64,000 bases of DNA from Mesodorylaimus sp. YZB2_4. Its lineage: Eukaryota; Nematoda; Enoplea; Dorylaimida; Dorylaimidae. The stretch spans positions 558,001 to 622,000 of the forward strand of contig JASANH010001061.1 in the NCBI GenBank assembly GCA_030248295.1, in the 5' to 3' direction. Positions 6,061-63,408 of this stretch are shown here, in pieces (the stretch's first letter is position 1; each line of letters begins with the position of its first letter). The translations under genes and the position numbers were made by a program. The notes below the pieces were generated by a model. The model was not told the origin of the DNA, searched no databases, and saw nothing but the letters and a program-made list of their open reading frames with translations.

Positions 6061-6981
6061 AACAAGGAGAAACCCACACCAACCACAACTTATCAATTTC
6101 CCATTTTTTGCCCCTTTTCCTCTTCTGAAGCGGTCATACACCTACTGTACGCTATTGCGCACTTTTAGCTTTGCAGAGTGACGGGTAAAAATTAAATTTT
6201 GCATTGCAGTGTCCCGTATTGCTCTGTGGATCGTATCACTAAAAAAAAGTACCCATCTACTGGAAAAATGTGAGTGTGCTTTCGCATATTTACGTCTTTA
6301 CTATCGAGGATGACCTCTTTTTAGTTTGATCACACGTTGTGAAGTCTGAACTACTGAATGCGTTCGATTTCTGACAGATATCTCTGCTAACATTGCAGGT
6401 TTTGGGGAAAAAGTAACAAATAGCCTTTTTGTGCTAGCGAAACCCATAAGACCGCATGCAAAGCATTTATCCTTGACTAAGAATACCTTACACCAAAGCT
6501 TGCAAGTTACAAAGCTACTGCCTAAAAAATTTAACTCTGACAATAAGCAAGTCACAGACTGAAAATTTCATCCGCCGTCGATATGTGCAGTTGATTATTG
6601 GCGAAACTATTTAGCGGACATTCTTTTATGACTCACTCGAATCAACGACTCATCACAACATTATCGGGATTCGAATTGAAAAAGCTTAATTTATTTTTCC
6701 TGTCACTATGATGATTCAGAGAGAGATAATATGCCGAATGGATATGTCAGCATTTGTTACCTACCTTTATCAGCAGGAGTTCGAGAGAGAAAGTTGGGTG
6801 CAACTACAGTGCACTGTAGTGTGGTTGTAAAACACACGTGTGCCTCGTCTGCCAACTGGCTGCACTTGCGCACTGCTCGCCCGATTATCTTGTGTTATAT
6901 AGACGGAAAACTTACAATCAGATAAATTTTTTGGTGTTCCAAAATGCATAGAGTTATCTCTTTCAGGTCGGAAACCGAAGA

Positions 6982-8250
6982 ATGTCATCAACTGTTCGCA
7001 GTTCATGTTATGTCTTCATCGACAATTCAAATCTGTGGGTCCAAGGTCAAAAGGTGGCCGCAGGGAAACATAAACTAAATGTCGAATTTGATGATCGCTT
7101 CAGACTTGATCTGGGCAAACTTGTCACAAAAATTCTCAGTGGTCGAGAAAGAGCCATGAAACCTATTTTGTATGGTTCTGAGCCCCCCGCTCAAGATTCC
7201 TTGTGGGATGCTATACGAAAATGTCAAATTGAAGTCAAGGTGTATCGGCGCAATTTCAAGGGCAAAGAAAAAGAAGTCGACACGGCCCTCACAGCCGATG
7301 CCATCCAAGCGGCATGCAAAAATGAAGAGCGAGCCAGAGATGGCACTTTCATAGTAATGGCTGGCAATCGCGATTACAAGGCGTGCTTAGAAAAAATCAA
7401 CGATGCCGGTTTTGCAGTCGAGGTGTATGCATGGAAACGAGCGATTTCTGCCGAGCTTAAAAGGATGGCTGAAGGTAAATCCATGTTTCGCATATTGTAT
7501 TTGGATGAAATTGTCTTCGAGGAAACAATTTGCTACTACATCAACTGGCAATTTGATACCTACAAAAATAAAATTCCACGAGATCGAAGTATTATGCACA
7601 AATTCAAACAGCGCAACGAGTCCATGTTGGAGTCCCTGATCAAAAAGGCGACCGAATTTTTCAAGCTTCCCTGTCGAGGATGCTGGTTGACAAAGAGAAA
7701 AATAGCAGTGGTCGTGTTGCCAGAGTCATCGTCATCCGACGCTGCCGCATCCTCATCCACTTCCACGAAGTACGATTTTACGAAACTGTTTCAATTTTGG
7801 AAGGAATCAAGTGCGATTAAAGAATTTGCAGTCGAAAGACTGATCACTGCAACTGAATATTTTGGACCAGATCGGGACGACTATTACTTGGTCGAAGGGC
7901 AGGATGCGGATGCGGATGATCAGGGTAACTGGGAGGTGGCGGGAAGCGGTAAGAAAAAGCCGAGAAAACAGAAGTCATCTGATCCCTGCATTTATGGCTT
8001 CCAATGCCTAAATGGCACAAACTGTGGCTGGAAGCACAGCGACGACGAAAAGCGATTTTTTAAAGAACACGGCAACAGGGGAGTGCCAGGCTACAAAACA
8101 AAACCGTGTTGCCATGACACCAAATGCAGGTACCGAACCGACACCGTCCTGTGCAGTTACTCGCATAATGATCGTGAAGCTCGTTGCTCTGTGCCTGGAT
8201 GTAGAGCAGTCGGTCATTATGCTTTCGACTGTCCCAAGGCGCCGATATAA
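6982..8250 (+). CDS. NYN-domain RNase with CCCH fingers and zinc knuckle (copy 1)
   Basis: Intact single-exon frame of 422 residues. Residues 9-165 fit a NYN (PIN-like) metal-dependent RNase fold: CYVFIDNSNL with Asp14, EKEVDTALTAD with Asp100 and Asp106, and FIVMAGNRDY with Asp131, which correspond to the acidic active-site positions of this fold. A second conserved block of unknown function (ICYYINWQF ... FFKLPCRGCW) follows, then an acidic linker. The last ~90 residues carry two CCCH-type fingers (CIYGFQCLNGTNCGWKH, then a C-C-C-H ending CSYSH) and a Cys/His knuckle (CSVPGCRAVGHYAFDC). The likely role is cleaving or binding RNA, as in other NYN-CCCH proteins; the target is unknown. Unlike copy 3, it has no intron in the coding part and lacks the extra middle exon. 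The start is the first ATG after a TTTCAG acceptor 15 nt upstream, implying a 5' UTR intron or trans-splicing. Confidence 0.9.
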   Translation: MSSTVRSSCYVFIDNSNLWVQGQKVAAGKHKLNVEFDDRFRLDLGKLVTKILSGRERAMKPILYGSEPPAQDSLWDAIRKCQIEVKVYRRNFKGKEKEVDTALTADAIQAACKNEERARDGTFIVMAGNRDYKACLEKINDAGFAVEVYAWKRAISAELKRMAEGKSMFRILYLDEIVFEETICYYINWQFDTYKNKIPRDRSIMHKFKQRNESMLESLIKKATEFFKLPCRGCWLTKRKIAVVVLPESSSSDAAASSSTSTKYDFTKLFQFWKESSAIKEFAVERLITATEYFGPDRDDYYLVEGQDADADDQGNWEVAGSGKKKPRKQKSSDPCIYGFQCLNGTNCGWKHSDDEKRFFKEHGNRGVPGYKTKPCCHDTKCRYRTDTVLCSYSHNDREARCSVPGCRAVGHYAFDCPKAPI

Positions 8251-11105: not shown

Positions 11106-11981
11106 AAACTCAATTTTGCAAAGCAACCATGCAGAATATCAGAGCAGCTCTTCATAAATAAACTAACTAAACAACCTGTCGACCAAATGCGATTAAACGT
11201 GCAGAAACACAGTCAACCGGTTGCATAAAATAAAAAGCTGCTGCAGCCACCACCAGATTATCTAATGCCCCATGTACATTAAGTTGTTGCCCACATACGA
11301 ATAGGAATGAACTTACTTAGCTTGAGCAGCAACAAGGTCATCTAATGTCTCGCTACATGTGGCTGGTACTTTACAAAAAGTAGGCTCAGTATTTTTATTT
11401 CACATATTTGCTATAGTCGATGCACTGAACGTAAGTTTTTACGTGACATCGAAAAATACTTAGAACCATCCAACTACTCTCGTAGCGATGAAATTGGCAG
11501 GCCATGATTCGCCAATCATGTCAACTTTTCTGGATTCCAGTCGCTTTTAAAATATTCCAGGCAACAAATACTGTAATATGACGCAACAATGGACATTTTC
11601 CATCAGCATTTGATAACGCTGCTGACAAAGTGTTGCGCCGGTTACATTACTTGAATGATTTGTGTTCTGTGAATCACCATCTCAATCTGATAGCGCATGA
11701 AAAATGCGATTTGCTGGCGCTCGAAGCTCAAGATATCCAACTACAAGCAAGAAAGTTTTGAAGCTAAACTGTTTTCTTCATCAAGTTATTTTTTGACACA
11801 CCACACTTACTGCGCCGTTACAAGGGTTAAATTTTGTTTCCTATGAACATCAATACCACATTGTATATTTTACTGTGGCTATAATGAACTTTCTTATATG
11901 ACCATTTTCACCCTTGCAATTTCATCTTGGTTTTCGAGATAAAAACCTGCAATTTATTTTCTTTCAGTTTATGACTGAAAA

Positions 11982-13815
11982 ATGGATGCAGATTCGGACG
12001 AGTACAATGATCGTACTAGACGGGATCAGTGCTATGTTTTTATTGATGCCGCAAGTTTATTAGATCCAGGCCAGCGCGTGGCCTCAAGAAACTTTAATCT
12101 ACACACCACAAGGGACCATCGCTTCAAGCTTGATTTGGGAAGCCTTGTGAAAAAAATCCTTCGTGATCGAAGAAAAGCCATAGTACCAATATTGTACTGC
12201 AATCCTTCAGTAAGACCCTTTATTGACATCGTGCTGGATGCATTTATGATACGAATGGTCGAAATCAAAACGCTTAAGCACTGCTGTGGCGATGAAAAAA
12301 CAGCCGTAGCGTGTCTGTCAGCTGATGTGTGGAAAGCGGCGCTCGAAAATCAAAACGGAGCCTCCCGCAGTGTATTCATTATAGTGGCTGGTTATCCAAA
12401 TATATGGCAGTTGAACGACATCATGAAACTTGGCTTTGCTCTCGAGATCTATTGTTGGGATAAAGAAGCAATTTCAGCTACGCGTGGACGGGACACATCA
12501 ACAAGCGGAAGGAACCTGGCAACATTCAGAAGGCACCCGTCAACACGTGGAAGGCACGCGTCAACACGCGGAAGGCATCCGTCAACACGCGGAAGGCACC
12601 TGGCATCACGTGGAAGGAGCCCGGAAAAGTTTGAAGCCTGTAAGAAAGTGTTCTATTTGGATAAGCTTGTCTTCAGTGAGCCCGTTTGCTATTCTATCAT
12701 TTGGCATTTTGGCGCCGACAAAAGTCAGATTCCAAAAGACCGTAGCATCGCGCACGTATTGCCCAAGAAAGCCGAAATAAGCTCCCATATGATGCAGTTA
12801 TTGGCTGAAAAAGCCACTGATTTTTTTAAACTTCCGTGTCAATGGTGCTATTTAAAAGAGGAAAGCGTAGTCGTGATCATCTTGCCGCCAGATGAGGATT
12901 CACAAGAATTGCCGTTCCGAGCGCGCGCATTGGCGCAAGAAAAGTGCCAACAGCAGGCTTGTTTTGCACAGCTTTTGCTGAACTGGAAGAGATCGAGAGA
13001 AATCGGTGAAGTATCTTGGATTGAAAACGTGCTCACACTAAGCGATTATTATTATCAAGCCCGCGCAAACGCAAACTCTAAAGAAGTACGCGAAGACGTT
13101 CAGCAGACCATGAAGGTATGCTCAAGTGAAAGGTAGTACTTTAGCTGGAAATGACTAGTGAGCGGGGGAGTCCTTCACCCTCGAGTTCTCAGTGCACATA
13201 CCTTTGTGTTTGATGATGACGTCGGAGAAACGCTAAAATAGGCGAGAATGCCCGACTGCAATTTTTCACAAATCTATGTTCTTGGAAACTGATTATCAGA
13301 AATCAATACTCAACAGTCATTTGCGTCGATCAAACACTCGCAAAATGCTCCACATTAACGCGGTGCAAAATGCTTTCTTCTTGCAGATCTCTGAAAAATA
13401 AAGCCTTTGCGCCTTGCGCTGCAAGCATATTATTTCGAAGTTGTATTGCCTCGGGCACTTATAATAGAAAGAGTTATTATACTAAGCGAATATATTTGAA
13501 AGAGGCACGCGAAAAAAGCAGAAAAAATTCACTTTTGGGCATAATAATTTGCGCAAGCATTGAAACTTTTAGGCTGTGGGCGGAATGACGTGGGAAATAT
13601 ACGACATCGCTGGCCACGTTTATTTATACAACAACAAATCAAAACTCCTCACATGGCTGCAGCTGGGCTCCGCTCCTTACGAAATTGGATGCTTCACGGC
13701 AGATGAGAACGAGTTGACTGAAGACAACAAAATAAACTGCGAGAATTTAATACCAGATTTATTACATCGCGGATACAGACTTGGTAAATGTCGAAATTTT
13801 TTAGTTGTAGGGTAG
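11982..13815 (+). CDS. degenerate NYN-domain paralogue without zinc fingers (copy 2)
   Basis: Exon 1 runs 11982-13115 and ends at a GTATGC donor in phase 0. Exon 2 starts at 13573 after TTTTAG and can be read to a TAG at 13815, giving about 458 residues. The NYN fold is recognisable (CYVFIDAASLL, FIIVAGYPNI, IYCW), but the usual FIDNSNL, EVD and AGDRD motifs read FIDAASL, TAVA and AGYPN. Only the first acidic residue is kept, so nuclease activity is doubtful. A stretch of seven-residue repeats (RHPSTRG type) is inserted after the domain. Exon 2 encodes the block beginning AVGGMTWEIYDIAG, almost the same as in copy 3. A phase-1 donor sits at 13784, but I find no downstream exon with the CCCH fingers, so the protein either ends by reading into the intron or the last exon is lost. 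It may be a pseudoenzyme or an early pseudogene. Confidence 0.75.
12485..12620 (+). repeat. 21-bp in-frame tandem repeat in NYN copy 2
   Basis: About six units of 21 bp (AAGGCACCCGTCAACACGTGG and variants) are in frame, so each adds seven residues of the type RHPSTRG. The four central units are nearly identical; the outer ones are degraded. The other three NYN paralogues have no such insert at this position, so the expansion is specific to this copy. Confidence 0.9.
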
Positions 13816-17120: not shown

Positions 17121-20100
17121 ATCTATGGGAACTCGAAAAGGTTGGTCTGAAACACGAGAAGAAGGAAGAAGAAGACGAGAAGGCACTCGATTATTTCAAT
17201 CGCACTATCGCGTACAGATATGGCCGATATGAGGTCAGGTGGCCCTGGAAGGACCCAGAGGTCAAACCGCCAGAAAATTATAAGCTCGCTCATGATCGCG
17301 TTATTTCGGTTTGCAAACGCTTGAAAGGTGAACCTGAACTCCTGAAGAAGTATGATGAAATCATTTGGGACCAATTAAAGAAAGGAATCATCGAAGAGGT
17401 TCCGGAAGCTGCAAAGGAACAGCCGCAAGGTCCAGTGCACTACTTGGCTCATCATCCAGTCATTACGCCGCAGAAAACAACTACAAAGGTTCGCATAGTA
17501 TATGATGGCTCCGCACGAAGCAAAACCACAGAACGAAGCTTGAATGAATGTCTTTACCGTGGTCCAGTCATCCTCGAAGATTTGGGCAAGTTACTGATTC
17601 GCTTCCGCTTACATAAAATCGCTCTCATTTCGGACATCGAGGAAGCATTCTTGCAAGTTGGCTTACAAGAAGAAGACCGTGATGTCACTCGCTTCATCTG
17701 GATCAAAGACATAACCAAATACGCATCGCCAGGCAACTTAATCGAATATCGTTTCACACCAGTGCCATTCGGGGTGGTCTCAAGTCCGTTCTTACTCGCA
17801 GCAACCATTTTGCATCATCTCAATCTGAAAGGTGGACCAGTTGCAGAAAAAATCGCCCAAAATATTTACGTCGACAACGTCATCACAGGCTGTCATACAA
17901 TCGAGCAAAGCCAGCAATTCTATGAGACGGCGAAAGGGCTCTTCGCCACCGCTTCAATGAACCTTCGTGAATGGACTACGAATGCCGAAGAGCTTCAGTC
18001 TTGGCTCCCCGAGAAGGACCGTGGACCATCGCAGAAAGTCAAAGTGCTCGGAATACATTGGGATGTGCAAGCAGACAGCATCAGCATCAATCAAGCCGAA
18101 CCCCTGAAACAGGATTTCATCACCAAACGAGCTATCCTCCGCTTCGTGCATCAAAGTTTTGACCCGCTTGGCATATTTTGTCCAATATACACCAAGGCAA
18201 AAGTGTTTCTGCAAAGCTTATGGGCAATCGACCTGCAGTGGGACCAACTGCTTCTGGCAGATCAATAACGATCATTCGAAATGATCCAAAAAGAAATATT
18301 GCAGTCAACGCCGCTCAACATCCCACGTTGGATTGGCACAAACGTCAAAGATGACATTTGGTTCGAACCTCACGCATTCTGTGACGCATCCGCACAAATG
18401 TACGCTACTGCAATCTATCTTCGTGAAATATCGTCAGATCGCATCAATGCCAACATCATCTTTGCAAAGTCAAGGTTGGCACCAGCCAGAACGATAACGA
18501 TACCTCGCTTAGAACTCCTCGGAGTCGACTTGGGCGTAAAGATAGTCGAATATGAGCAGCAAGCCTTCCCGGGCAAAATCGCTACCATCACGATCTGGAG
18601 TGATTCGCAATGCGTTCTCCATTGGATACGGTCAGTCAAGCCGCTCTCAGTCTTTGTCGAGAATCGAGTACGTGATATCAAGAAAAACCCACATCTGCGC
18701 TTCCGCTATGTGCCTACGAAAGACAATCCGGCAGACACAGCCACGAGAGGAAGGCCAAGCGCTGAACTGCAGAAAGATTCGCAATGGTGGCATGGCCCGA
18801 AATGGTTAATACATCCTGAATCGGATTGGCCAAGCAACGAATATATGTTGGATCAGACGACACAAGAAAACATCGAATCAACAGAGGCCAGAAAGAAAAC
18901 ACCGCTGTTTACAATGGTCGCCACAGCGAAGCCACCAGACCGGTTAGAAGTTCAGAACTTTTCAAACTATACACATCTGCTTCGAATCACGGCATTGTGT
19001 CAGAAATTTGGACGGAAATGCCTAAATCAAGACAGTGCTGAGGGACAACAACTCTCGGCGCATGACATAGAAATCGCAGAGTCATACTGGATCAAACGAG
19101 ATCAAGAAGAAGATCATGAAGAAGCGCACTTTGGAGAAGAACGACAACGTCTAGAATGTGGAGAATCAGTACACATCGGACAAATCCCGCTAGAACTGGA
19201 TGCCAAGGGTCTGATTCGAGGTCGAGGTCGGATCACGCACGCTCCTCTAAACGAAGAGGCAAAGAAACCAATCCTGCTATCGAGGAAATCTGAACTCGCG
19301 AAGTTGATAATCGCACACACTCACGCTCAACTGTGCCACGCTGGAACGGCACAGACGCTCGCTCATCTTCGCCAACGCTTTTGGATCACAGCAGGACGGC
19401 AGGTTGTGTTTAATGTCCTTCGGCGCTGCACTCAATGCAAGAAACTCGATGGAGGTCCATTTACTACGCCAGAATCTCCAAGCTTACCGCAAGAACGAGT
19501 CAATGTCTTCACACCGTTTGGGTCCATTGGCGTCGACTACCTTGGTCCACTCACTGTTAAAATCGGGAAGAACAAACTCGCAAAGCGTTGGATCTGCCTA
19601 TTCACATGCACCGCAACGAGGGCAGTCCATCTCGAGGTCGTCGAGGGCTTAAGCGCTGACGACTTTCTCAATGTTTTTCGCATCTATATCGCACGCCGAC
19701 AAAAGCCAAAAGTGGTCTGGTCGGACAACGCCGGTCAATTCACCGCAAAGCAGGTACAAAGGTTCGCTGCTGACCATGGAATTCAATGGAAACGTATGCC
19801 TGAACGGGCCCCCTGGATGGGTGGTTTCTACGAGCGACTTGTGGGAATGGTCAAGCGGGCGCTGCTCAAGACAGCCGGAAATGCACTACTCAACTCGCGA
19901 CAGCTGCAGGTGCTTACAGCAGAAATAGAAGCTGTAATCAGTGATCGCCCTCTCGTGCATGTGGGATCTGAAATCGGAGAGACTGTAATCACGCCAGCTC
20001 ATTTTATACATCCAGGAGAATCCCCTCGTGGAGAAAGCGTGGCCACCCCCAACGAACAGGCTGTTGAAGAATACTGGACACGTCTTCGCAATATATACAA

Positions 20101-20416
20101 TGCATTCGTTAGATTGTGGCAAACCGAATACCTGACATCTCTGCGGGAACGCCAAAGGGTTCAACTCAAACAAGGAAGGGCGAAGTCAGCATCCACACCG
20201 CAGATCGGAGAAATCGTTCAGATTAAATCAGAAGGCCCACGACATCGTTGGCGCACTGGCATCATCAAAGATTTCATAACATCAACCGATGGAAAAATTC
20301 GTGTAGCCATCATCAAGCTGACCAATGGACAAGAAATCAAACGCGCAATCGTGCAATTATACCCCTTAGAAATCGTCAGTGGGGAGTGTCGCGGATTGGA
20401 GAGCAACCGCGAGTGA
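17115..20416 (+). pseudogene. BEL/Pao pol: reverse transcriptase, RNase H, integrase
   Basis: One frame with a single TAA at 18266-18268. The reverse transcriptase shows VRIVYDGSAR, SDIEEAFLQVGL and the active-site box IYVDNVITG, with Asn in the place of the second Asp of YVDD. RNase H follows (FCDASAQMYATAIY, RLELLGVDLG, WSDSQCVLHW, RYVPTKDNPADTATRG). The integrase has the His-His-Cys-Cys zinc site (HAGTAQTL ... CTQCKKLDGG) and the DDE residues in GVDYLGPL, VWSDNAGQF and GGFYERLVG. A DUF5641-like end (GEIVQIKSEGPRHRWRTGII) closes it. Apart from the stop this part is well preserved, so the insertion is not very old. Confidence 0.9.
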
Positions 20417-26340: not shown

Positions 26341-27133
26341 CTCCCCAGTTAGACGGAGTATCCAATTAGACGTATTTAAATTCGCAAATAGCTGGAATGA
26401 CATCATTCACTGTTAGAAAAAGCTTTTCGTGAAAATTTTTTAAGATTGAATATTTGGTTAAACGTGTGGAGTATAGGAAACGTCGTACCCGGCCTTCTCA
26501 TTGCGTTCTCTGAAAATGCACCAATATCTGAATTTCCATTAAAATTTGAAGCAAGTTACACGGCATTGCGCAACCCCCGCCGCAATCATTATCTGGCGAT
26601 GACTTTAATCCTAGGCGTTAAAAATCTTTTAAAATATAACGCTAAACAAAATTTTGCAATATCGCGCATTTGCGCTGGCTGCTTTTGATCATCCCACCTG
26701 CATTGGATTTCATAAATTATTATTCATTGCGCGATGATAGTTCGGTGAGTCACTCCGACAAAACTGACTGCGCATAAAAAGCTGATTAGCGTTTGCAGCT
26801 TTCAACTTTTCACAGACTCGCATGTACTTTGAAGAAGCGTTTCTTCGCGACTATCCAGCCGGTGTCTGCAGTTCTTCTGGCTTATTTGATCAGGTTAGTC
26901 TTGTGAAAAACAAACTCTGCCAGTGCCCCTGTGGCTAATTTGCGTCTGAAACATTGCTGCCACAAATTCTAGTTTTTCACGAATCAATATGATTTAGTGC
27001 AGATATAGGACAGCATAAATATTTTAATTTTTACTCGAATACCTCTTCAATCTAAAATCGCTTCACAAAAGAAGCTTGAAATTTCTCTAAAAAAAATGTT
27101 GCACTGTACTTTCTTTTAGGTCGCAACTAAAAA

Positions 27134-30100
27134 ATGCTACCGACACTTCGAAATCAATGTTACGTATTCATCGATTATTCAAATCTGTATATTGGGGGCC
27201 AAAGAGTAGCGGCGAAGAAAAACGGGCTTGTAACCCCTTCGGACGATCGCTTTAGGTTCGACTTGGGGAAACTAGTTACAAAAATTCTTGATGGTCGACA
27301 AAAAGCAATAAACCCAATAGTGTATTGTTCGGAGCCCCCCAAAAATGATTCGCTGTGGAATGCTATACGACGACACGAAATCGAAGTCAAGGTGTTTGCT
27401 CGCGATTTCGGCGGCAAAGAGAAAGAAGTCGACACGTCCTTGACGGCCGATTCCACCAAAATAGCCACTGAAAACAAAGGAAAATCTGCCATTGGTGTTT
27501 TCATTATAATGGCTGGCGATCGAGATTTCATGCCGTGTATAAGACACATAATCAATTTTGGTTTCGCTGTGGAGGTCTATGCGTGGGAGCGAGCTCTTTC
27601 GGGGTCATTCATGAAAACCCCAAATTGGACCCCCAATTTGAAAGTGACCCATTTGGATGATATCGTCTTCAAGGAGCCTGCTTGCTATTTTATCAGTTGG
27701 CAGTTCGAATCCGACAACCGTCAGATTCCGGAAGATCGCAGCATGGCGAACGTATTCAAGACCGCCCAAGGCGCGACCGTTTTGCAATCATTGATCGAGA
27801 CGGCCACTGGTTTTTTCAAACTTCCTTGTCGAGGACGCTGGTTGGAAGAGGGCAAAGTAGCCCTGGTCGTCCTGCCACCTGGTCCGAAATCGCAAAGATC
27901 ACAGTCATTTACGCGCGTGAGATTCAGAGATGAGGCTGCGGAAGAAAAAGGCCGTTATGCACAGCTTTTTCTGGAATGGAAGCAATCGAGAGAAATGCAG
28001 GGGTTTGGGATCGAAAAGGTGATCCCACCAAGCGAATACTTTGAATTGGCACGCAAAAAAGCGGAAGCTGACAAAGTACAGCAGCCTGTGAAGGTACGTA
28101 CTTTTAGTTGCATGCAAGGCAGACAGTGAAAATGGAACAGCAAGTTAGGAAATTAAGGGCGAAACTTGCACAGCGAGTATGTTTCTAATTGATTTCACTT
28201 GGGTTTACAAAAAAACTTGGCGAGGTTGCTGTAAGAGCTTAAGTTCATATCTCGCATGGCCTCAAAATGATTCTTGACACGATGGAGCGCATCAAAAAGT
28301 CTTGGCGGCTGGTGGCCAGATTGCCTCGTGGTCGCTTTCTTGGAGTGATCAGCAATGTCATATCCTGGACAGATTACAAGGGAACATCGTCAACTGTCAA
28401 GTAGGACTTTAGAAAACCAGAGATTGTATTTGTTCCTAGGTTCTAAAGAAAGGTCTGTGCAAAATATGAGGAGCGTATGGCCAATCGGTCAGCAGTGGTT
28501 CACCTTGTCCTGCCGAATTTTATAATTCTTCGGGTTTTAAAATAAAAAACCCAAAATCCAAGTGTTGAAAGCTGAAACTCGAAGCCTGAAAGCCAAAAAC
28601 CGAGTTCGAAATGAACCTTTCGTGTTTTTCCCAACACTTGGCTTCCTTACCGCACAAAAGCTCGAAAATCTGCAGGACCTTTAAACGCTGACCACTGCTG
28701 ACCAGTTGGCCAGACGCCTCTACTATTTTGCACAGAGGTTTCTTTATCACCTAGGAAACTACAATTTTTGGTTTTGCAAAATCCGACTTGACGGTTATCG
28801 ATTTTCGCCTCCTCTTTTCAGGGTCTATATTATTGTCTTGACCTCGCCATAGCGAGCAGAGCGAGGCGATCAGTGAGTGTCGCTTTTCAAAATTGCTGTA
28901 GTCTAGCTTCAGTGATTCTGATACTGCGGGAAGAAATCGTGGTTGGGCCTCGTTTTTGACAGTAAAGGGCCACTGAAATCAGTTTTTTGAGCTTAGCGTT
29001 GACTGCCCCTCTGACAAATCATTTGGGTGACTTCTCGACTCTCCAGTAGAAGTTCAAAATCTCTAAGTATTGAAACTTGTACCGCGCAACTTGTCGCTAC
29101 AATATTTGGCAGTGGGGACAGTTGATAATCACACTGCACCCACCCACCTCCAAAGTCTGCTGCCTAGTCATCATACTTTCTGCAAGAAATCAGGCTATTA
29201 TTGCTAGGCGAGCTATGAGCTTATTGCAAGATCGCGATGAAAGCGTTTTAGAATCACCTTTTAAATTAAGTTTCTGCCTTTGAATAACGCGCGCAATACT
29301 GACTGAATTTCTATTAAAAAATTTAGGGAGGCTTAGTTCATAAGAATTGCCAAATCTTTCACAGAAAATGATTCATGAGCATTCACGAACATGCTCCTTC
29401 AAATCGAACATTGAAGCTTCCGTCGCTTATTTCGACGTGATGGTCACGCTTTTTATGACGCATCTTTTCTGTCTGTCACTATAAAAAGTGCTATGCCTTG
29501 CGAACATGAATTTGCGCCTCGACTATTTCTGACTTTCTGCGCCATTGAAAAATTTTTAAAGACTTTCGTTGTTTTATGATTTTGCGCACCAATCCGAATT
29601 CGTTTCTGTTATTAAAAGTTCAATTGGGGCAGTGAAACATTCTCAAAATTTTCGCCCGCTGTACCCCGCCCGCCTAGTCCAGCCCGACAACGCTTGCTAG
29701 CAATGTTAGGTGAATTAATTAATTAATTGAAAAAATTAAGACCGCCAACAGGTCTTTGACTCGTTTGGAGTTTGCCCTTGAACGTACTCTGGGTCATCAA
29801 GCCCTTGTCTAAGAAAACTGGATAGGAACAATCTTAGTAGCTGATTGTGTACTCTTGACCTATTAGCTAAACTTACGATAAGAGCAAGAGCTTGGTATAA
29901 TCCTGTATGTGTATGGCAGTCATCTTGGTGCTTTGAGTAGAGTTGAGTTGACCAGCACCCCAGTGAGAACCCTTCCAAGTAACAGCTGGTATTCGTGATA
30001 TTCTGGATAGATTTGATGCTGACATCAGCACGCTGGACCTGTATGCCAGTGACCACACTATATGCGCCCCCCCCCCCCTGTCTGTGCCTTGGTTGCTTGC

Positions 30101-36973: not shown

Positions 36974-39156
36974 ATGTCTTGGTAAGTGAATGACTGATAG
37001 ATTGGTGGCTCATAAGCTTTATGACCAGCCCTTTCTTGTGTATAGCATACTGGAAATCTCTTAACCGCAAGCTCCCGTTTTTCAGGTCTTTGAAGCACTC
37101 TTAAAATGCAATTTTCGCAAATTAAATCCCGAGTGATTATATAATGCGATTTGTTGCACCCTGTTGTGCCAAAAAGTTAGCAAAAACCAGCAAAGAAGCC
37201 TAGCCAACAGTCTTACGATTAGCAAGTTTGGCAGCGCCGAATGAGCAGGTTCTATCATTTTACCTGGCTGAAAAAGCGAACAGTAGATACAACTCAAAAT
37301 TTTATGCTAACTTTAGCCGGAAGTTTAGCATCTACAGTCTGCACTCACAAGGGAACATCGCCAACCGTTAAGTCGAATTTTGAGAAACCAAAAATTGTAA
37401 TATGTTGCCAGGTGCAAAAGAAAGCTCTGTGCAAAATATTAGAGGCGTCTGGCCAGCTGGTCAGTTGTGGTTAGCGCGTAAAGTACAGTGAAATTTTTAA
37501 ATTCTGCTGGATTTTTTGGGTTCTTTCAGGAAAAAAACGCCAAACCCGAGCGTAGGAAGCTCAAACTCGAAACTCCGAACCCAAAAATCTAGTTTGGAAG
37601 GAGCTCTACGTGTTTTTCTCAACGCTCAGCTTCGTTAACACACAAAAATTCGGGACTTTAGACGCTGACCAGTGCTGAGCAGTTGGCCAGACGCATCTCA
37701 TATTTTGCACAGAGCTTTCTTTTACACCCAGAAACATGTTACAATTTTTGGTTTCTCAAAATTCGACTTAACGGTTGGCGATGTTCCCTTGTCAGAACAG
37801 ATCGCAAAAAAGTTCAGAATTAAAAACTTTGTATATTTTAGCACGCCTCCAGTTCGAGACGAATGTTACATATTTATCGATAACAGCAATTTGTACATCG
37901 GTGGCCAAGCAGCATGGGCGATAAACCAACAACTATTGACCCAGTTCGATGAACGATTTCGATTAGATTACGGGCAACTCAAGAAGAAAATTCTAAATAA
38001 AAGAATCGAAGCGATAAAGCCGAAAGTTTACGTTTCGGAAGCGATTGATCGGTCAACCGCTTCTTGTTGGGAAGAAATCAAATCGCACGGTTTCGATGTG
38101 ATTTCTTCAAAACGCAATCGTCAAGATAAAGAAAAGAATGTCGATCAGAGTTTAGGCAATGATGCAGTTGACGAAATGTGGAAATGCAAAGATCGAGCTG
38201 ATAAAGCTGTCTTCATTTTGGTGACCGGCGATAAAGATATGAAATCGACGGTTGAGAAGGCACTGGAAAAAGGGTTTCATGTGGAAATTTACGCATGGCG
38301 TCATTCGACCACAGATTCGTTCAGAGAAATAAGACGTATGGATCCGACTTCAGTGCAGATTATGTATTTGGATGATATCGTGTTCCAAAGCGGAGAGAAA
38401 ATTGTTCAAATCAGTAGATTTTTTATCAGCAAGTACCGACACAAAGTTCCTTACGATCGTGCGATCGGACATGAATTCGTTGAACCGAAGCAGAAGCCAA
38501 GCAATACTAAAATTTTGATCGACTTGGTGGATACTTTGACCAATTTTTCCAAGGTTCCGTGTCGTGGATTTTGGTCAAAAAAAGGCGAAATAGCTTTTAT
38601 CGTTTTAATGGTCACCGAATCGAAATTGAAAGCCTCTGAATCGTCGTATTCTTTCGACGAAACATTTCAGCGATGGAAAGAATCGAAAGAAATCAAGAAA
38701 TTCGGTCTAAAAGATGTTTTTGTTGGACGTGGTTCAACGACCCAAGAAGACGAACCTTCAGCGAGGGCTAGCAAAACACACAGTTCGGAAAATGACGATG
38801 AGTCTGTTCCTGACGACGAAAGCGCTCCAACAAGTCCAACTCAATGCAAATACAATTTCGGGTGTCAGTTCGGGATAAAATGTCGAAACGAGCACAGCGA
38901 AGAGGAGAAACGATTTTTCGAACGCCCCAACGGAAAAGGAGTCGGAGATCGAAATTATAAAGTGGAGGAATGCAAATACGTAGCAACATGCAAGAATAAA
39001 GCAGACCCGGTCTTATGCCGCTTTGCCCACAGCGATGACGAAGCTCATTGCTCGAAATGCCACAAGGTTGGCCATTTCTATTACAAGTGTCCCGTGAAAA
39101 GACAGGATTCGGATCATCAAAAGTCGGAAAGCAGTTCGAACGAAAAAGAAAACTAA
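36974..39156 (+). CDS. NYN-domain RNase with CCCH fingers and zinc knuckle (copy 4)
   Basis: I read this as two coding exons: a tiny exon 36974-36981 (ATGTCTTG, then a GTAAGTG donor) and 37842-39156 after TATTTTAG. They join in frame as MSCTPPVRDECYIFIDNSNL, giving 440 residues. This N-terminus resembles those of the other copies (short, then the first strand). The long frame can also be read from further upstream, but that part lies in the arm of a mobile element (37348-37792), so I reject that start. The NYN active-site residues are all kept (FIDNSNLYIGGQ, EKNVDQSLGND, VTGDKD). The middle block (RFFISKYR ... FSKVPCRGFW), a Ser/acid-rich linker, two CCCH-type fingers (CKYNFGCQFGIKCRNEH, then CRFAH) and a canonical CX2CX4HX4C knuckle (CSKCHKVGHFYYKC) follow. 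It is the most diverged member and lacks the exon-2 block of copies 2 and 3. Confidence 0.9.
37348..37792. repeat. young foldback MITE in intron 1 of NYN copy 4
   Basis: The two arms of about 130 bp are near-perfect reverse complements. The outer ~52 bp (from ACAAGGGAACATCGCCAACC inwards) match base for base by eye, and the inner part (GAAAGCTCTGTGCAAAATAT) differs at only a few sites. It is the same family as 28378-28810 but much less decayed. The spacer is about 180 bp with no coding motif. Transcribed as intron it would form a long hairpin. Confidence 0.9.
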
Positions 39157-44565: not shown

Positions 44566-47500
44566 CTACAGGACCAGGGAGACTCCATCGGACCTGGGGT
44601 CGCATGCAGCCCACACCACTTGGTCATCATCGGCGAACTGACCCGTCTTGTCCCACCATGCACCACGCGTGATTACTGACCCGCGTCCAACCATGTTCCG
44701 TTCGAAGTACCTGAGCGGACCGTGTTTGGATATGTTGTGACCCTTGGATCGAAGACTATCGATGACGCTGTCCGGAATGCCTTCCTCGTAATTCAGCTTG
44801 GATGCGAAGGTCTCGAAATCGAAATCGATCATGACTCGAGGACGATTCAAGGCTTGTTGAGGAGTGTAGCCGAATTCAAGCAGGTTCAGAAGGACCTGGA
44901 AATTGTGACTCGTTGGCCTGATATCTGCTACTGCGGTGTTCAGTCCACTCCTTGTAAAGCGACTTTACAATGTCCTCCCAGCTCCGATCGATATATCGGC
45001 CAATAATTGTGGGCAGCACTCTCCTGACAACTGCACTGATCGGCCTGTGCAGGGGTTACCATTGTCTCAGCGTACTGTAGCGCTCGCTTGCGAGGTGCCA
45101 AGCAGCATTGAAACAGTATGACTGCCAGCGCTATGCTGTGTAAAGTGATACAGAGCATCGCTGTCGATCTGCAGTGCATTGCTGATTAGGCAACCCGCAG
45201 GGTTCCCATCACCCTTTAAATCCTCTAAATCCTCTAAAACCTCCTTTGAATTCACCCTGTCAAGCTGGTAGGAACCCTGAACCCAGTCCTGCAGCACTTC
45301 CCTGCTCTGACTTTCTGCAATAGCCTCACGATCAGTGGAAAATGCCCAGCTCTTGCAACTGGCGGTATAGCTGTACGTTGGAGAAGATACCGGGAGGGGG
45401 GGGAGCGGATGGCCTCAAAATATTCCAGGCAGGTCTCCTAGACGTGGGAGACCGATGCTTCAACCCGACAGGCTTCAGCCTCACCTGAAGGGGGTGTGTT
45501 GCAGCCAACGAAGGCAAGCCAATACACTGTCCTGTGTATAAGGCAACCAAATACAGAACCTTGCCCACAGGCCCAACACGCCTATTACACACTCCCAATA
45601 CAGTACAAACAGGGCAGTGCAAAGTGCTGATTGTGCCATCTTACGCAGGAGAACTGCACAGTTGCAGCGCAGCCTCCTGCAGCAGGAGACTGCTATGCAA
45701 CTTGGTAACAGTGATGTTCAGTCCTTTTGGAGCGACTTTACAATGTCCTCTCAGCTCCGGTCGATATATCAGTCAATAAATATGGGAGGGCACTGATCGA
45801 CCAGTGCAGGGTGTCGCCCATGTTTGCTGTACTGGGCGCTGGCAGTGGTCGATCAGCGCAGTCGTCTGCAACATCGACCCTGCTGACTCACCTGCAGATG
45901 ACCCTGCGGCTGGTTAGGTCCGCCCATGATGCCGAACAGAGCAGCCAGCTCGCCCGTTTCGGCCTTGGTCATCAGGCCAGCCATGAGTGTGCTGAATGGT
46001 CTGACCGAGGGAGTGAATTTGCGATGTTGGAATTCCCACACGTGATAGGCACGATTGCTCAACGTGAAGCCGCACCCGTCGGGCACATAGCCCGTGCCGA
46101 AGTAGGCGTAGGTCGAGTACACCACCGAGCACCCGTTGCCGTGCTGGTCGAGCACGGAGAAGTAAGTGGTGTCCGCTGGTTTGTCACGTCCATCATCGAA
46201 ATATGTGGATTTGCTGAGAATCGATGCCTTTTCGGGATCAAATAATTTTACTCTTTCCATTGCGTGCGCTTCGCTGAGTAAATAGTCGTAGGCTGGTGGC
46301 AGGCCATTTTCGGCACGACGCCACAGAGCGGACAAATCGGCGAAACTGTATTTCAAACTTTCGATCAAAGCGTGGTAATAGTGATCCAATGATTTAGAAT
46401 ACTTTTCAAAATGATCAATTTGTGACAATAATTGCAAGGCTTCCAATGTGACCAATCCTTGTGACCCGGGTGGCGTTTCGTACAAATCGAACGTCTGACC
46501 ATCAAGATTCTTCGATTTGTATCGAAGTTTGACAGGTTCCACGAAATCTGGTTTATGCGCGGCTAAATCCTCCAATGTTAGCAGGCCGCCGTGGCGCTGT
46601 TGGCACTGCACGATGGCCCGCGCGATACGGCTATCTTTATAGAACGCGTCCGGACCATGATCGCCGATCTCTTCCAGTGTTCGAGCTAAATCGGGTAGAC
46701 GAAAAATTTGGCCAGCTTTTGGTGTTGTACGACGATCGGGGTTCAAAAAAACGGGATCCAAATCGAATTTGGCTGGTGCACCGCCTGGACGATAAGGTGT
46801 CAGGGAGTCGAGGGATGCCTGACCACAACGCCACACGTGGGCACTCAACTCGGACACAGCGAACCCATCGCGAGCCAGTCGAATGGCTGGATCGAATAGA
46901 CGGCGTAGGCTCAGTTTGTCATTGCCGAAACGATCGTGCAAATGGCAAAACGCGGCTGGCGCACCCGGCACGGCGGTGCAGACGGCGTGGTGCAATGGCA
47001 CGTGCTCTGCGAACCCTAAACGTTCCAAATTGGCACGTGTGAAGGCGGCTGCTGTGCGACCGTGACCATTCAGGCAATACACGCGTTTCGTGTCGGCCTC
47101 GTAGTACAAGATCCACGTGTCACCGCCTGAAAAGGAGCCAATGCTTGCGGCCTGCAGTTGCGTGGGTCGTAATTGCACTGCTGGGAAATGTGCCGTGGCA
47201 CTTCCAGGGCTGTTCTGCCAAACTCGATGGCATGAGGACACCCTTCATGCTGGGCCTACTTGACGAGCTGTTGCAAGTGCACTCCCCTTTGCACTTTGCA
47301 CTGGACAGTGTAAAGAGCTGGCTGGCACTGTCTAGTGCTATAAATATGGGCGCTTTACACTGCACCCGTACTCTACCGTGTTTGCATATTGTGCAAGGCA
47401 TACTGCATTCTGCACTGATCGCAAGGTCGCTGCAGGCAGTCAGCATATTGCATTGTAAAGTGCCAACCAGCAAGCAGGCCCTGACCAGTGTAAAGGGCTA

Positions 47501-51481: not shown

Positions 51482-52537
51482 TCATAAAAATTCGTCGACA
51501 TTAGGCTCCTTGCAGTGCCTTAACAAATCACTGACAACCTCCTCGGCGTCGTCCATTATTGACCAGTGGTAGTGGGGTGACCTGGGCTGGGCTTTCCTCA
51601 CACAATCTATCCATTGCCGGGGCATTCTCGACGCCCCCACGCTGGCCCCCACCAGGGCCCCTGTGATGCACCCGTTCGTATCCGTGTCCCCGCCACGACG
51701 CACCACATTGATCAAGGACCGAACAAAGTCGTCCCCGTTGTGCCTCAGTTCGTAGAAGGCCCACTTGAGTGCCACCCCCAAGTACCCCATCATTTCATCA
51801 TCGCCTTTAATGCACTTGGAATCCTTCTCGTCTTCACTGCCCACAACGATCGGAATCGGCTGATCATCGTGATCAATTTCCAATAATCGACGAATTCGAT
51901 TAGTTTCGCAGGCAAGTATCGATTCTTCATAAGCCCTCTTCTGATCACCAGTATTGATCAGGATCGATATCGCCTGGGCATAAGTGGCCGCGGCATCTTG
52001 CGCGATTGGATTAGGATGAGTGAGACGGCAATCAGCTTTGGCCGCGGCGCGTAAAGTGGACACTGGCCATTTCGATCCAGCTATACCCAAAGGTGAAACG
52101 CGCATTAAACACCCGTTGCTCAGACTCGATCGATTGAACGTATCCGAGGCCATGAGCATCTTGCGCCGAACCACCTCGCTACTCAGACTCATCATCTCCT
52201 GTTCAGACTCTGGCATTCGACGGAACGCTTGGTAGGTGGTCGCCCCGATGTCTTCTGGTTGAGTATAGAACCATCGAGCGTACGAGCGAGCCACATCGCG
52301 CTGGTCGAACGAAGCGCGTCCACGTAGACTACGAGCCAAAGCCATGGCCATCTCAGTGTCGTCAGTCACTTGACCCGCACTCATACCACGTCCACCCGTA
52401 ATTGCTGGAAGGGCATCCATGGATGGGGACAAGGACAGGGGTCTCAATTCGTATGAAAAACCAAACGAATCACCAATGGCCTGTCCCAAAACACAGCCTA
52501 ATGCTCGATCAAACACCGCATCGTTATCAGTCATCAT
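51482..52537 (-). CDS. ADP-ribosylglycohydrolase (ARH/DraG family)
   Basis: Single exon, 351 residues. The N-terminus DRALGCVLGQAIGDSFGFSYE, the metal site GQVTDDTEMAMALA and the C-terminal metal site NVVRRGGDTDTNGCITGALVG are the three signatures of the ARH/DraG fold, which hydrolyses ADP-ribose from modified proteins or nucleic acids using two Mg ions. All acidic ligands (TDDTE, GGDTDT) are present, so it should be active. The length fits the family. I see no signal peptide or other domain, so a cytosolic or nuclear location is expected. The absence of introns contrasts with the intron-rich neighbours and might reflect retroposition or acquisition from bacteria, but ARH genes also occur naturally in animals. 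It is divergent from the NADAR gene with 329 bp between the start codons. Which ADP-ribose linkage it cleaves cannot be told from sequence. Confidence 0.93.
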   Translation of the reverse strand: MMTDNDAVFDRALGCVLGQAIGDSFGFSYELRPLSLSPSMDALPAITGGRGMSAGQVTDDTEMAMALARSLRGRASFDQRDVARSYARWFYTQPEDIGATTYQAFRRMPESEQEMMSLSSEVVRRKMLMASDTFNRSSLSNGCLMRVSPLGIAGSKWPVSTLRAAAKADCRLTHPNPIAQDAAATYAQAISILINTGDQKRAYEESILACETNRIRRLLEIDHDDQPIPIVVGSEDEKDSKCIKGDDEMMGYLGVALKWAFYELRHNGDDFVRSLINVVRRGGDTDTNGCITGALVGASVGASRMPRQWIDCVRKAQPRSPHYHWSIMDDAEEVVSDLLRHCKEPNVDEFL

Positions 52538-52866
52538 ATTCTACGAAAAGACACCAAAACAAAACCCAAAACTGAAATAAAAATACAGTTCAGCGCCCTA
52601 AAACCTATTCTTCCTGTCCTGTTGCATAACTCGAAGAAATCGGCATGAGTAAAATTCAGTTCCAGGTAGACGCAATAAACACCTGACCCGAAACCCACTT
52701 TTACGCCAGGCCCCCCCAATCGAAGAGCAGATATCGCGAAAAAAATCAAATTTCCCGAAGCAAAGAAAAGTTTGAAAATTTTCTGATGAATTCTCTAATC
52801 TGAAATCATATGAAGTGTTTGAAAATTTATAAACTTTTGCATTGAATTTGGGAGATATCATTAAAA
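52538..52866. promoter_or_regulatory. shared promoter region of ARH and NADAR genes
   Basis: The 329 bp between the divergent start codons must contain both promoters and 5' UTRs. It is AT-rich near the NADAR side. No acceptor site is obvious just before either ATG, in contrast to the NYN genes. Co-regulation is an inference from the arrangement. Confidence 0.6.
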
Positions 52867-54349
52867 ATGGCCCTTTTTGGACAATATCCCAGTTCCGCTC
52901 TCGGATCTCGTAATGGCGGGACAAATATGGCACGACCCGGCCATCAAGTCATGCCCATGCCAACTAATGTAGCCAGCAACGACAACGACGACGATGATGA
53001 CGACGACGTAATTATGAAAGGTGGATTAGTCAGTTTCGACAGCTCGCAAAGAAATTACATGCATCTTCAAGTTTTATCGAAAGAATTCGCTACGTTGAAA
53101 CAAGAAAACGATTCGTTCAAAAATGCTATTTCCGAATTGCAAACTGATCGAGATAAATTACGTATGGCTGTCAGGAAATTGAAGGTGGAGAACAGTCGAT
53201 TTAAGGTAAGTTAAAAAGTCTTATGCGATTTCGTTGATTTTAAGCCGGGGTTTTTGGGGAGGAAAATGAATTTGAAGTTCGTGCATGAGAGCAATATGTA
53301 TATATTTTATGTTTCAGGCCAAACTGAAACGTATGAGCACGGCCATTGCGTCGAAACGTAGCGTGCCCCCGGGCACTGAAGGAGCTGATGCGGCTATGGC
53401 GGGCGATGATGATCATATGGCCGATGATTTGGAGGACGATTTCGATTATGAAGATATCGGCGAATTTTTATTGATCGGTGGCTCAAATGATCCGTTATCA
53501 GTTCAATATCGCGCACCGTTTCGGGACTCGGATGGAAAAGAGCACAAGGATATAGAACGATATTTGTGGTACAAAATGGCCGAAACATTCAACGATCAAG
53601 AAAATATGTCGAAAATTTTAAGCGCGCAAAGTCCATCGGCTGCTGAGGAAGCTATGAAAAGCATAAAAGTACGATTTTTACAATGTTCACGAATTTTTCT
53701 GTTTTACATTTTTATTTTACCTTTTTAGAATTTTGACCAAAAAACGTGGGATGCTGTGAAAATGCGTCATTGGGAAGATGGTCATCGCGCTAAATTCGAG
53801 CAATATCGTTCGTTGAAATGTCTACTTATCAAAACTGGTAAGAATTATTTGGCTATCGCTTGTCAAGACAAATTTTTTGGCACTGGTTGGCGTAAGCAAC
53901 GCGAAGAATCTGCTCGTCCACATTTATGGGATGGCGAAAATCGAGGTGGCAAATTATTGATGAAATTACGGACCGAATACTTGGCTAATCATACTTGGAC
54001 AACGCCCGAAGAAGAATCCGAGGCGCAGAATAAATTTTACGAAAATCGGCGAAACGTGTGGCGTAGAATTATGAAACGTGATGTCGATACCGCCTTCGGA
54101 ACTCGAGGACGTGGACGCGGTCGAGGTGGTGGGTCAGCCATTAATGCCAGGAATATGGCCGGTGGTCATTCAGGCAACTACGCCTGGTCTAACGATCATT
54201 TCAATCAACCAAATTATCCTCCTGCTACGTACATGGCTTTTGGCGGATCGAATATGGAAGCCATGCCGTTCGCTCCCAACTTCCCACAACGAGCTACGGC
54301 TGGGGGCCGCGGTCGCGGTTCAACGCTTAATAAACGAGGCCGTTTCTGA
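52867..54349 (+). CDS. NADAR-domain protein with coiled coil and RGG-type tail
   Basis: Three exons join in phase: 52867-53205, 53318-53668 and 53729-54349, giving 436 residues. Residues ~30-45 are an acidic run (NDNDDDDDDD). Residues ~55-120 form a probable coiled coil (LQVLSKEFATLKQENDSFKN and on). A second acidic patch precedes the NADAR (YbiA-like, DUF1768) domain at about residues 165-335: YRAPFRDSDGKEHKDIERYL with its Glu, WDAVKMRHWEDGHRAKFEQY, CLLIKTGKNYLAIACQDKFF then GTGW, and GGKLLMKLRTEYL. NADAR enzymes cleave N-glycosidic bonds of riboflavin intermediates or remove ADP-ribose from guanine. The usual SNF in the first motif reads SND. The C-terminus is rich in Arg-Gly (GTRGRGRGRGGG and GGRGRG), typical of RNA- or nucleic-acid-binding tails. 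Coiled coil plus RGG tail is unusual for NADAR and suggests targeting to nucleic acid or RNP. It pairs with the ARH gene. Confidence 0.9.
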
Positions 54350-62685: not shown

Positions 62686-63408
62686 TTATAGCTCCTCATA
62701 AAATCGATATCTTCCAATATCACCCAATCGCATGCAATGGTAAGTCCAAGCTGGTTTTTGTCCTTGACCATCCAAATTCGTTGGACAGTAAAAGTGATCA
62801 GCATCTTGGACCCAGTCGACGGCTTGGACTTGGTTGGCATAGATCTGCTCAGCCAATTGGAGGATTTCGCCGTAGACCATGTGGTCATCGACTGGTATGT
62901 CGCCGTGTCGCCAGCACTCGAACTCGTACACATAGTCGCCAGTGTCCAGTGGCGTCCTGTGGGTGACGACTCCTCGCACCGTGCCTCCACCCCACTGCTC
63001 TCGATCGGCCACCACACGATTCATGATCACCTGACCAATGGCTATCTGACCTTGGATAGGCTCGTTCTTGGCTGCACCATAAATGGTCTTGGCCAAGTAC
63101 TCGATTTCAGGATCCACCATTTCTGCAATCTACCAAAAATGAAATACTTGCGGGCTTAGATAGAGCATAGAGCACACGAAATGACAGGTGCCAGGCGGGT
63201 CTTGGCTTACGCAACGTTTACTCACAAGCACAGCTCGAGCCACACAATCGAGTCCAGGAAGGAAATCAGTCGAACTAGTCACTGGTGCTGACAGACTGTC
63301 ACATTCGATGATGCACGTTGGCCTACACAGTCCGGGAGCGTGCTTTGGGGCTTCGTCGCGGCTGATTGAGAAAACGCTAAAAATTGATGAGTAACACATG
63401 GAATGCAT
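62686..63408 (-). CDS. SleB-like cell-wall hydrolase domain protein
   Basis: Two exons on the minus strand: 63408-63226 (phase 0, GTGAGT donor) and 63129-62686 (after a GGTAG acceptor), giving 208 residues if the ATG at 63408 is used; a longer 5' part is possible. The second exon has the Hydrolase_2 (SleB) layout: LAKTIYGAAKNEPIQGQIAI, then GQVIMNRVV, a middle loop, DADHFYCPTN and a closing IGRYRFYEEL. In bacterial SleB and related lytic enzymes this fold cleaves peptidoglycan. The first motif usually reads YxEAxxEP with a catalytic Glu; here it reads YGAAKNEP, so that Glu is Ala while the second Glu is kept, and activity is uncertain. The first exon is Cys-rich (CRPTCIIECDS) and shows no clear signal peptide. 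The gene has an intron and sits beside EDEM3, so it is part of the animal genome, not bacterial contamination. Confidence 0.75.

Follow-up and report, generated by a model that had tools for sequence, protein, structure and literature searches.

A divergent ARH and NADAR gene pair in a Mesodorylaimus genome: catalytic residues replaced in the NADAR partner, and NADAR domains carried by L1-like LINEs

NADAR and ARH proteins in described systems

In a published comparison, ADP-ribose attached to the guanosine base is reversed by NADARs and by none of the ARH-like or human enzymes tested; ADP-ribose on phosphate ends is reversed by ARH-like and macrodomain enzymes, and not by NADARs (PMC11833690). 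The residues described for guanine de-ADP-ribosylation are Glu43, Lys50 and Glu125 of the P. nicotianae NADAR, equivalent to E88, K95 and D171 of the E. coli C7 protein, and in the latter the Lys and the Glu/Asp were reported to matter (PMC11543638). In nematodes, SNA-3 is an essential SL1 trans-splicing protein with three NADARs; the first of these is reported to lack key residues, and the other two to be needed (PMC9303266). According to that source, therefore, nematode NADARs can serve RNA machinery. In PMC3527274, C. elegans irg-1 (C07G3.2) is counted among the DUF1768 (NADAR) proteins, a hint that other nematode NADARs may answer pathogens. NADARs in retrotransposons have also been described, in ORF1 of a Tx1 LINE of the oyster C. 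gigas and in an Ectocarpus Gypsy element (PMC12477816). Among the matches listed in our literature searches, no description of a NADAR in a nematode retrotransposon was found.

The divergent ARH and NADAR genes

The window analyzed here is a 64-kb stretch of contig C38, part of a 145-Mb Mesodorylaimus genome in 1067 contigs. As listed in Table 1, an ARH gene and a NADAR gene are divergently arranged, with their start codons 329 bp apart, exactly as the sequence-only reading had placed them, the ARH with its GQVTDDTE and GGDTDTN motifs and the NADAR gene on the opposite strand. No inverted repeat was found between 52400 and 53000, a region that does contain a short family of direct repeats, and no Rfam family reached the gathering score in the window. 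Other features of the window are also given in Table 1. One of them, a Cell Wall Hydrolase domain, belongs to a family known from bacteria; it lies on a nematode contig and is a possible transfer.

Table 1. Coordinates of features in the window and of NADAR-bearing loci elsewhere in the genome
Feature	Location	Strand	Remarks
ARH/DraG-type ADP-ribosylglycohydrolase gene	51482..52537	-	351 aa, single frame; metal motifs intact
Intergenic region between start codons	52538..52866	none	329 bp
17-base direct repeat family	52765-52837		3 copies, at least 74% alike (searched 52400-53000)
NADAR gene	52867..54349	+	three exons, GT..AG introns, ATG at 52867; 436-aa protein
NADAR gene exon 1	52867..53205	+	acidic stretch and coiled coil
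NADAR gene exon 2	53318..53668	+	first NADAR part; Glu kept, catalytic Lys replaced by Met
NADAR gene exon 3	53729..54349	+	second NADAR part, catalytic Glu replaced by Ile; Arg/Gly-rich tail; includes stop
Three NYN-domain genes	6952-8247, 27131-28126, 37669-39153	+	
Fourth frame, resembling the NYN genes by eye	11979-13133	+	no Pfam match
Pao-type retrotransposon piece	18269-20413, probably from about 15150	+	peptidase A17, integrase zinc-binding, integrase core
Gamma-glutamyltranspeptidase	45856-47244	-	one long frame; PF01019, 4.5e-77
Cell Wall Hydrolase domain	62689-63129	-	PF07486, 2.9e-12
NADAR-bearing L1-like LINE	contigs C51, C110, C171, C118, C37 and others; loci L011-L021, L025-L029		
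Gene with two NADARs (L024)	G000:C18:333500-340500		
Second repeated NADAR type (L030)	G000:C289:6000-12000		97-100-aa frames, profile about 2-103; similar on C929, C491, C936, C765, C134

The ARH protein matches PF03747 (ADP_ribosyl_GH) with an E value of 8.9e-55 over profile positions 1-286 of 287, and both metal-site motifs (TDDTE and GGDTDT) are present. It retains 51 of the 54 columns that are invariant across 13 other ARHs of the nematode set (the ARH of contig C53, P0001 and 11 named nematode proteins, with four rows, including Plectus, left out). The earlier view of this protein as a likely hydrolase is supported by the intact motifs and the retained columns, and these residues make it most likely a functional metal-dependent hydrolase of ADP-ribose with the DraG/ARH fold. 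Among the best 120 of 526 ARH matches, 18 name an organism: 15 are nematodes, one is Gregarina and two are giant viruses. This homology, with the Parascaris match of the NADAR protein, marks the host as a nematode.

Only one other ARH match was found in the genome, on contig C53. A 60-row tree was built from 58 of the best 120 of the 526 matches together with both ARHs of the genome. In it, the window copy branches as sister to the pair formed by the C53 ARH and P0001 (100/80), inside a 100/99 clade. These three group with 14 nematode-side rows at 94/92, which is below the starred level, and Plectus, another nematode, is not part of this group. The end branch of the window copy measures 0.66, against 0.25 and 0.23 in the C53 ARH and P0001 pair; the window copy is therefore a faster-evolving duplicate. 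Between the two ARHs of the genome pN is 0.33 and pS is 0.74, so the window copy is probably under purifying selection. The stretch from YE to GQVTDD has 23 residues in the window ARH and 34 in the C53 ARH. The GC3 of the window ARH is high, at 0.57, and those of the C53 ARH and the NADAR gene are 0.41 and 0.42, respectively. The genome-wide profile search (E<=0.001) gave no NADAR match on contig C53, and no NADAR was seen by eye among the open frames fetched around the C53 ARH (L001, 3.9 kb; L062, 3.7 kb; L063, 4.4 kb).

The NADAR protein consists of a coiled coil followed by the NADAR domain and an Arg/Gly-rich tail; PF08719 matches residues 183-313 (E=1e-25), and the protein is continuous over both exon joins, like the proteins of its relatives. 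Eleven relatives were found, only one of which names its organism, Parascaris univalens; 10 of the 11 are on contigs shorter than 2 kb or, in the case of Parascaris, have no listed contig. No name for this coiled-coil NADAR family was found among the listed matches and text passages searched. In a 28-row tree the family forms a separate clade (100/99) with a stem of 1.19. The predicted model of one relative, P0125, has a mean pLDDT of 66, with values of 83-95 across most of the NADAR domain; it is weak at residues 261-280 (62-71), directly after the E125 site, and shows a long helix (54-113) ahead of the domain. The only PDB matches to this model below 0.001 were 8bau (5.9e-8) and 2b3w (1.9e-5). 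A search of a viral structure library yielded 42 matches to it below 0.001, many of them named phage or giant-virus NADARs or pieces of nidovirus polyproteins, and these add only that the predicted P0125 fold is that of a NADAR. From the P0125 model, the NADAR fold appears to be retained in the window family.

The catalytic positions were read, in P. nicotianae numbering, after aligning the window protein and its 11 relatives. The Glu43 equivalent is Glu in all 12 sequences. The Lys50 equivalent is Met in all of them, and at the Glu125 equivalent, the placement of which requires a one-residue gap, every sequence has Ile, Val or Phe (Ile in the window protein). No acidic residue occurs in any of the 12 within the seven residues preceding the Asp/Asn-Lys pair at this site. 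Similarly, the K75 equivalent is Glu or Gln throughout. The Gln of YbiA in the Lys50 column is a gap artefact in a fragment, and its Lys lies seven places after its Glu, as in 8bau. The sequence-only reading had described the two genes as encoding two ADP-ribose-removing enzymes. This holds for the ARH, which keeps its motifs; the replacement of two of the three needed residues, in the window protein and in all 11 relatives, argues against a hydrolase in the case of the NADAR protein. On sequence grounds NADAR activity is probably lost, but another residue could substitute: the family has an invariant Lys directly preceding the Met, as well as an invariant GTGWRK stretch.

NADAR domains and ADP-ribosylation enzymes elsewhere in the genome

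The NADAR family gave 75 exon-level matches genome-wide at E<=0.001, a substantial share of which contain internal stops, and by our tally 55 of the 75 fall in the stretches that were fetched. Many of the 75 correspond to the terminal part of ORF1 in an L1-like LINE. LINE ORF2-like sequence was present in 16 of 20 fetched stretches of 5-9.5 kb, which were chosen by hand and not at random, and was absent from the other four. At L016, and at 14 loci outside this ORF2 comparison, the domains resemble the NADARs of LINEs (47-99% identity) more closely than any of the non-LINE domains compared. A Pfam zinc knuckle was detected in two of four long ORF1 frames, in one of them above the curated cut-off, and another is in a broken copy; its C-C-H-C residues are invariant in a five-sequence alignment. 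Both ORF2 sequences scanned carry an endonuclease/exonuclease/phosphatase domain and a reverse transcriptase. The best match of the L014 ORF2 is the LINE-1 ORF2 protein (1.1e-68), with R2 far weaker (1.6e-8). L015 and L016 each have ~5.5 kb in common with L014, at 99.5% identity. The LINE tails are A-rich. Flanking repeats were compared at six copies: one has a 14-base repeat, two have words of 8-9 bases, and three have none of at least 7. Recent activity is suggested by the almost identical copies in which both ORFs are open. No relatives of the LINE ORF1 were found at E<=0.001 among the 7877 candidates of a word-limited search, or among 143 pattern matches in viral contigs.

Among 26 LINE-type NADAR domains readable at all three catalytic sites (a count that leaves out 19 partial pieces, refetched duplicates and non-LINE domains), 22 have retained Glu, Lys/Arg and Glu. 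Of the four exceptions, one has Gly and two have Asp at the last site, and in one the Lys site is damaged. Because the LINE NADAR, endonuclease and reverse transcriptase are saturated at synonymous sites, dN values were compared and no dN/dS ratios taken. Between LINE subfamilies, dN is 0.22-0.35 for NADAR, 0.19-0.27 for the endonuclease, 0.20-0.25 for the reverse transcriptase and 0.42-1.10 for the remaining ORF1; in pairwise comparisons NADAR changes somewhat more quickly than the domains of ORF2. Its dN is low relative to the remaining ORF1, and thus, as judged by substitution, the LINE NADAR is under clear purifying selection, nearly as strong as that on the endonuclease and reverse transcriptase.

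Non-LINE NADARs are also present. All three catalytic residues are retained in both domains of the C18 gene and in that of C621, so the host is not devoid of intact NADARs; the C22 domain and two aligned C230 domains have neither Lys50 nor Glu125. The C18 gene, a host gene whose two NADARs are both intact at these sites, looks like a better candidate SNA-3 homologue than the window gene. In a second repeated NADAR type, no LINE ORF2-like neighbour was found at the fetched C289 copy.

The PARP profile gave 10 exon-level matches on six contigs, and the macrodomain profile three matches on two contigs. DarT (PF14487) had no match in the genome at E<=0.001, in a search whose control matched in one of 14 genomes; the ART family PF01129 had none either, but there no control matched at all, so that this result carries no weight. 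Neither PARP nor DarT matched anywhere on contig C38 in these genome-wide searches, in keeping with the earlier statement that no ADP-ribosyltransferase is seen in the window. The accompanying suggestion of a transferase made elsewhere agrees with the PARP-type genes and finds no counterpart in DarT. ADP-ribosylation enzymes are present in the host, and nothing ties them to the ARH-NADAR locus.

Readings of the locus and its relation to known systems

It is probable that the locus holds genes of two families, placed back to back in a fairly compact nematode genome with no shown functional link: a working ARH, and a non-catalytic NADAR that binds RNA or a nucleotide. The ARH would be a duplicated, faster-evolving hydrolase acting on ADP-ribosylated protein or phosphate ends, as the substrates of its family suggest. 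The NADAR protein, conserved at least to Parascaris, would most likely have a non-catalytic role within an RNP, binding either RNA or ADP-ribose/nucleotide, and in this would resemble the degenerate first NADAR domain of SNA-3; the RG tail is the only pointer to RNA binding. That an ARH should lie beside one of the few host NADAR genes by pure chance looks unlikely by our own, uncomputed estimate, and it is possible that an ARH-NADAR link is confined to the Mesodorylaimus lineage.

The sequence-only reading proposed instead a co-regulated hydrolase pair, driven by a shared promoter and jointly clearing ADP-ribose from nucleic acid or RNP. Both domains do come from ADP-ribose-removing families, they start within a few hundred bp of each other, and PARP-type transferases exist in the genome. 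No evidence for such a joint pathway was found, however: the catalytic Lys and Glu of the NADAR are gone in all 12 family sequences read, the ARH is a fast, long-branch duplicate whose C53 counterpart lies on a contig without a NADAR match, and DarT is not matched in the genome. We consider this pair improbable. The domain name alone had suggested it, and the residues correct that misreading.

A different possibility is that the window NADAR has kept enzymatic activity, but on another substrate and through a rebuilt active site that uses Lys177, Arg263/Lys264 (P0125 numbering) or similar invariants. The predicted NADAR fold is kept, and Lys177-Met178, GTGWRK (259-264) and W275 D276 G277 - N279 - G281 G282 are invariant in all 11 relatives, but a binding surface accounts equally well for this invariance, and the Lys and the Glu/Asp that matter in the E. 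coli C7 NADAR (PMC11543638) are both gone; we regard a rebuilt enzyme as unlikely. Given the many LINE-borne NADARs in the genome, the window NADAR could also be a domesticated piece of such an element. In the 28-row tree, however, eight LINE NADARs form a single clade (100/100) apart from the window family, which speaks against a LINE offshoot; furthermore, the window gene has introns, a different architecture and a Parascaris relative, and domestication is thus highly improbable.

The LINE-borne NADAR is a more surprising result than the ARH-NADAR locus itself. With a constrained ORF1 NADAR in a nematode LINE, a possible retrotransposon fight against nucleic-acid ADP-ribosylation becomes directly testable. 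A speculative extension, which we think has a rather small chance of being right, treats NADAR as an arms-race domain: the intact LINE ORF1 NADAR would strip host-made guanine ADP-ribose off its own RNA or cDNA, and the window NADAR would be a non-catalytic reader that binds the marks or RNA.

Compared with known systems, the window ARH shares the whole domain and the metal, NG-MR and TH motifs with the DraG/ARH family (PDB 2woc; ARH3 entries, e.g. 5zqy). Its closest PDB entry is 2woc, an ADP-ribosyl-dinitrogen-reductase glycohydrolase (6.4e-27), and it is nearer to this than to the ARH3 entries (~2e-15), although UniRef labels several of its relatives ARH3. The C. gigas Tx1 LINE has its NADAR in ORF1 (PMC12477816), as do the LINE copies here, the host in our case being a nematode; this comparison does not extend to the window gene. 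With the DarT1-NADAR toxin-antitoxin systems the locus has the NADAR domain in common, but the catalytic set is missing and the neighbour is an ARH instead of DarT. The NADAR guanine-ADP-ribose hydrolases of P. nicotianae (8bau) and E. coli (YbiA, 2b3w) belong to the same domain family and fold as the window NADAR, which is without their catalytic Lys and Glu. SNA-3 is, like the window product, a nematode NADAR protein, and its NADAR1 is likewise reported without key residues (PMC9303266); it has three NADARs in about 940 aa, whereas the window protein combines a single NADAR with a coiled coil and an RG tail in 436 aa.
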